Assembly: GCF_037975245.1 (NCBI RefSeq)
Contig: NC_092562.1
Span: 20,721,054-20,785,053 of the forward strand
Origin: Apostichopus japonicus
Taxonomy: Eukaryota > Echinodermata > Holothuroidea > Aspidochirotida > Stichopodidae
Length of the DNA stretch: 64,000 nt
Direction of reading: 5' to 3'
The position numbers were made by a program, and so were the translations under genes. The first letter of the stretch is position 1. Each line of letters begins with the position of its first letter. Below the pieces are notes generated by a model that worked only from the letters and a program-made list of their open reading frames with translations, searched no databases and was not told where the DNA came from. Below are positions 29,207 through 46,979 of the stretch, piece by piece.

Positions 29207-29294
29207 ATGATGATGGACAAGTGTAAATGCTACCATGGCGACCGTTTGGGAGTCTTTGTAATCATTTTGATGTGTTTCCTCAATTTATGTAAAG
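29207..29294 (+). CDS. exon 1: signal peptide
   Basis: Three consecutive ATGs, then a hydrophobic core ([14 protein letters not shown]), typical of a signal peptide. The donor is gtaaga, phase 1, and it joins exon 2 in frame. An alternative in-frame start at 29774 also gives a hydrophobic leader (see findings). Confidence 0.8.

Positions 29295-46979: not shown

Follow-up and report, generated by a model that had tools for sequence, protein, structure and literature searches.

Gene structure and surroundings

The window analysed here is the whole 64,000 nt stretch of Apostichopus japonicus DNA, and all positions refer to it. A plus-strand gene at 29207-46979 consists of 12 exons and 11 introns, with all introns being GT-AG and all phases matching. 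Three ATG codons follow one another at the start; translated from the foremost of them (29207), the joined exons yield 688 residues with a single terminal stop, a product identical, letter for letter, to a database entry annotated as 'uncharacterized protein [Apostichopus japonicus]' (P0001). The 12 exons, their coordinates and phases, and the protein length had all been given correctly by an earlier sequence-only reading of this DNA. The exons, and the evidence for what each encodes, are as follows:

Exon 1, 29207..29294, plus strand: start codon and probable signal peptide with a 13-residue hydrophobic core (hydropathy)
Exon 2, 29832..29971, plus strand: SUEL domain 1, first half (Pfam SUEL_Lectin, tblastn map, sugar-contact residues)
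Exon 3, 33192..33348, plus strand: SUEL domain 1, second half (Pfam, tblastn map, sugar-contact residues)
Exon 4, 33936..34034, plus strand: EGF-like module between the lectin domains (sub-threshold EGF matches, 6/7 Cys kept in Holothuria)
Exon 5, 37967..38103, plus strand: SUEL domain 2, first half (Pfam, tblastn map, sugar-contact residues)
Exon 6, 39115..39268, plus strand: SUEL domain 2, second half (Pfam, tblastn map, sugar-contact residues)
Exon 7, 39861..40100, plus strand: HYR domain (Pfam HYR)
Exon 8, 44342..44638, plus strand: putative Ig1-like segment, no Cys (colinear in alignment A2)
Exon 9, 44922..45179, plus strand: Ig2-like domain (AlphaFold model, Ig-fold matches, shuffle test)
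Exon 10, 45452..45631, plus strand: Cys-rich EGF module a, 12 Cys (second part inside the Tie2 match)
Exon 11, 46058..46231, plus strand: Tie-type EGF module b with a 10-residue motif (Tie2 match, 8/8 Cys kept)
Exon 12, 46837..46979, plus strand: EGF module c and stop codon (Tie2 match, 8/8 Cys kept)

Nine exons start in phase 1, including every module boundary after the signal exon, while the two that start in phase 0 (exons 3 and 6) do so at the exon 2/3 and 5/6 joins, both inside SUEL domains. With phase-1 boundaries between modules and phase-0 joins only within the SUEL domains, the gene looks as if it was built by exon shuffling. The highest 19-residue hydropathy of the protein (2.13) lies at the N-terminus, at residue 16, and exon 1 probably encodes a signal peptide, as had been proposed; the hydrophobic stretch is there, and the prediction is one of hydrophobicity.

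Upstream of the gene, at 26125-26772 (plus strand), a frame read through stops matches RVT_1 (E 4.6e-21) and is followed by an ORF at 26943-27650 (plus strand); this RVT_1 region probably belongs to a non-LTR element. The translation of 23428-24093 (minus strand) resembles a reverse transcriptase fragment by eye. A degenerate 20-base tandem repeat of 38 copies occupies 41393-42162, inside the exon 7/8 intron, and a tandem repeat with a 67-base unit is found just downstream of the gene at 47766-47931.

The lectin half

Pfam detected SUEL in two stretches (E 3.2e-31, 108 bits against a gathering cut-off of 31.4) and HYR (E 1.6e-6, 28.8 bits against a cut-off of 21.7), the HYR score of the corresponding Holothuria leucospilota protein being 28.2 bits. 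Beyond these, no family was reported up to E 1 in either sea cucumber protein. The order SUEL, SUEL, HYR, first read from the sequence, is thus confirmed above gathering scores, and both families pass their cut-offs in both species. The EGF that had been placed after the first SUEL domain finds support in its cysteines, most of which are kept in Holothuria, but its EGF matches are all below threshold (best E 0.0023).

In comparisons with the PDB, the SUEL domains match rhamnose-binding lectins and latrophilins. The primary sugar-contact residues of the salmon lectin CSL3 are listed in PMC3269628, and five of them (Glu7, Tyr27, Asp79, Gly83 and Lys86) recur in every one of the four SUEL domains (two per species), with Asn74 present in three of the four. 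Arg39 and Gln43 of CSL3, which the same source ties to oligosaccharide (Gb3) specificity (PMC3269628), are not kept, so the sugar specificity may differ. Like the rhamnose-binding lectins SUEL, CSL3 and CSL2, the sea cucumber protein has a pair of SUEL domains that carry the YGR and DPC motifs and residues of the primary site; it differs from them in that an EGF module stands between the two domains, with HYR and a Tie-like tail coming after the second. The SUEL-EGF-SUEL-HYR half is well supported as a bivalent lectin of the L-rhamnose/D-galactose type with predicted glycan binding, each SUEL domain of both species having five or more of the six residues of the primary site, and this part of the original proposal gains from the comparison. 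The same five of six residues are kept in latrophilin-1. Since that protein is an adhesion receptor, they are no proof of an immune role, and point to carbohydrate binding rather than to any particular function.

The Tie-like tail

Among PDB proteins, the EGF trio (residues 554-684) is matched best by human Tie2, with E 6e-12 for the single sequence. With a two-sequence profile, the Tie2 structures 4k0v (E 8.7e-15, 57.5 bits) and 2gy5 (E 7.6e-14) stand well ahead of the next non-Tie EGF protein (E 3.9e-8, 35.5 bits), while Pfam reported no EGF on the residues of the trio. The likeness of the trio to Tie1/Tie2, a claim of the sequence-only reading, is therefore upheld, except that the first module deviates: exon 10 carries 12 Cys and so is not a plain Tie EGF1. 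A Tie-type motif, modelled on EGF 2 of Tie2 together with the first part of EGF 3, is present in seven of the 38 proteins fetched (two from sea cucumbers, four from amphioxus and one from a tick), and the 31 proteins lacking it include the EGF-bearing P0007, P0010 and P0011; since the pattern was drawn after the alignments had been seen, this count describes more than it tests.

Two Ig-like segments had been read upstream of the trio, and they fare differently. The best of five AlphaFold models of exon 9 has a pLDDT of 83.9 and its structure matches are Ig folds; sequence scores are weaker (4.2 and 5.4 bits, values reached by 15/2000 and 9/2000 shuffles, respectively). A predicted Ig fold preceding the EGF trio, as Ig2, is fairly supported for this exon. 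Exon 8, in contrast, has no Cys and no Pfam match, and when the Ig1-Ig2 block was compared with that of amphioxus the score was not above column-shuffled controls. Its Ig nature hence rests on its position and on the colinear alignment A2, and it is described here as a putative, weakly supported Ig1.

Relative to the Tie2 ectodomain (PDB 2gy5, 4k0v), the sea cucumber protein shares the EGF trio and a predicted Ig module before it. It differs in lacking a third Ig as well as the FN3, transmembrane and kinase parts, in the 12 Cys of its first EGF exon, and in carrying the lectin and HYR modules in front.

Conservation in Holothuria leucospilota

A protein of Holothuria leucospilota (P0002, 683 aa), a species of a different family from Apostichopus japonicus, aligns end to end with 48% identity, and has the same SUEL/HYR layout and the same end; no difference in layout was seen. 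It is annotated 'Tie-1', a name that misleads, since the protein has no kinase family match. Identity to the Holothuria protein varies by module: 23% in the signal exon, 43% in SUEL1, 42% in the exon 4 EGF, 56% in SUEL2, 51% in HYR, 35% in Ig1, 42% in Ig2, and 62%, 51% and 68% in EGFa, EGFb and EGFc. Both proteins have 64 Cys, and 59 of the 60 outside exon 1 are kept in Holothuria. All 53 across SUEL1, SUEL2, HYR, Ig2 and the three EGF exons are retained (12/12, 8/8 and 8/8 in exons 10, 11 and 12), as are six of seven in exon 4 and one of four in exon 1, exon 8 having none. Together, the module identities and the conservation of cysteines argue that the joined layout is real and has been kept by selection.

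Proposed function

The protein is proposed to be a secreted, glycan-binding recognition or bridging lectin whose tail binds another protein, an assignment whose chances are judged to be about even. The N-terminal SUEL-EGF-SUEL-HYR half would be the bivalent lectin, and the C-terminal Ig-like, Ig and three EGF modules would correspond to the front of a Tie-type ectodomain. Probably secreted, the protein would be exported to the coelomic fluid or matrix, where the two lectin domains would hold glycans of microbes or cells and the Tie-like tail would bind a protein partner, so that the whole would serve innate immunity by bridging, in recognition or adhesion. The top genes reported for the coelomocyte-like cluster C11 of Holothuria glaberrima include one named TIE1, together with ficolin-1-A and mucins (PMC11925454). 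This may be the same gene, and it is taken here as context and not as proof; that cluster C11 is rich in neuronal terms as well counts against the immune reading.

An extracellular-matrix or surface-coat adhesive protein, in which the lectin and HYR modules serve cell or matrix adhesion and not the recognition of foreign matter, is a less probable reading. HYR, EGF and SUEL modules all occur in adhesive proteins, and both the primary SUEL residues shared with latrophilin-1 and the high cysteine content of the two sea cucumber proteins would suit such a role. Against it, though not strongly, the retention of sugar-contact residues throughout the four SUEL domains fits a ligand-binding lectin, and there is no RGD in the Apostichopus or the Holothuria protein.

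The Tie-like tail could also make the protein a soluble decoy. A kinase-free Tie front fused to a bivalent lectin might serve as a glycan-tethered trap or bridge for angiopoietin-type, ficolin-like or other fibrinogen-domain ligands, bound through Ig2, with the lectin half anchoring or concentrating them on glycans. The order of modules is that of the Tie2 front, complete with the Tie-type EGF motif, and exon 9, for which an Ig fold is predicted, takes the place of Ig2, the ligand-binding domain of Tie2 to which angiopoietins bind (PMC8560823). Possible partners and relatives are on record in echinoderms: sea urchin Tie1/2 is listed in coelomocytes and the axial organ (PMC12113024), the coelomic epithelium of a holothurian expresses ANGL1, which is related to angiopoietins (PMC11925454), and work on coelomocytes and coelomic epithelium in starfish names a Tie-2-like protein as a putative surface marker (PMC13409769). 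However, the putative Ig1 is the least conserved module of the mature protein and is not demonstrable by sequence, and Ig2 is no better conserved than exon 4 or SUEL1. This specific form of ligand binding is considered improbable. If it were true, the coelomocyte Tie system and glycan recognition would meet in one secreted molecule.

Integrity of the gene model and absent receptor parts

Neighbouring lectin and Tie-like genes might have been fused by annotation, given that the intron between exons 7 and 8 is 4241 bases long and contains tandem repeats and that both full-length proteins are database annotations, but the phases match at the exon 7/8 join and the fused protein recurs, from end to end, in a member of another family, making such an artefact very improbable. 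The match over the full length of P0002 means that the annotations of two species place exons 2-7 and 8-12 in a single gene, and the split into two transcripts that had been considered at the outset is answered in the negative by these annotated proteins, as distinct from cDNA.

In Tie receptors, the EGF trio is followed by a third Ig and FN3 domains, and then by a transmembrane segment and kinase. Neither FN3 nor kinase gave a Pfam family match in the Apostichopus or Holothuria protein, the third Ig and FN3 are absent from both since each ends after the trio, and beyond residue 40 the 19-residue hydropathy peaks at 1.43 and 1.09, so that no further strongly hydrophobic stretch is seen in them. 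The Pfam scan of the window was made on the plus strand between the flanks 1-14209 and 62000-64000 and, within 29210-46999, on the joined exons; in the three plus frames of 47.0-62.0 kb it reported no family up to E 0.5, a search that short exons could escape. That downstream FN3, membrane and kinase exons were overlooked and the gene encodes a genuine Tie receptor is scarcely credible, given this result, the stop codon in exon 12 and the common end point of the proteins of both species. With no FN3 or kinase family, no second strongly hydrophobic stretch and no Pfam family in the plus frames scanned downstream, the protein is not filed as a Tie receptor; as judged from its sequence, it is a lectin to which the front of a Tie-like ectodomain is joined, the kinase being absent.

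Relatives and significance

Protein searches returned the architecture in only two holothuroid entries, one of them the ortholog P0002. These searches consider proteins of comparable length that have 5-residue words in common with the query, and the lists are incomplete; P0002 itself is absent from one profile-search list although it is part of that profile. The 28 other matches in the profile search list either HYR (25) or SUEL (3). A common annotated family with the same layout was thus found in the narrow sense of two holothuroid entries among such lists. The two-SUEL/HYR/Tie-like architecture was not found in the open-access literature searched, and among the matches listed for SUEL and angiopoietin none is on echinoderms by title. 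Each module is known; their joining in one protein, two SUEL and HYR with a Tie-like part that lacks a kinase, was found only in two sea cucumbers in the searches made. P0031, P0035 and P0037 have SUEL-lectin domains, with PF02140 the only family listed, and their other half looks bacterial by eye.

Four amphioxus proteins (P0003, P0006, P0008 and P0009) also have an Ig/EGF segment with the Tie motif and no kinase family listed, but differ in listing no SUEL or HYR. P0003, which has FN3, matches Tie2 residues 65-319 with E 1.7e-43, and matches the sea cucumber tail (tail residues 76-351) with E 9e-24 when the database comprises seven proteins; by eye, the identity lies mainly in the EGF part. 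Its Tie2 match reaches further N-terminal than that of the sea cucumber protein, so that P0003 bridges Tie2 and the sea cucumber tail. Both P0006 and P0008 list PF00147 (fibrinogen C), and a domain of that type is the ligand part of angiopoietins. P0006 also lists PF00270 (helicase) and may be a chimeric gene model, and P0008 also lists PF00536 and PF07647 (SAM). The amphioxus annotations represent another kinase-less use of the Tie ectodomain, fused there to a fibrinogen domain. A partial tick protein (P0004, Rhipicephalus appendiculatus) has an LCCL domain and five stretches of FN3 besides an EGF segment of Tie type that contains the same motif and, going by these features, is a Tie-like ectodomain in an arthropod record.

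These cases suggest that the Tie ectodomain can move as a module and serves without a kinase in echinoderms and, going by the annotations, also in amphioxus, and such use bears on the origin of the angiopoietin-Tie system. Holothurian genes automatically named 'Tie-1' may be lectins of the present kind, the Holothuria glaberrima TIE1 (PMC11925454) being a possible example, and a receptor-signalling reading of that coelomocyte-like TIE1 calls for caution.
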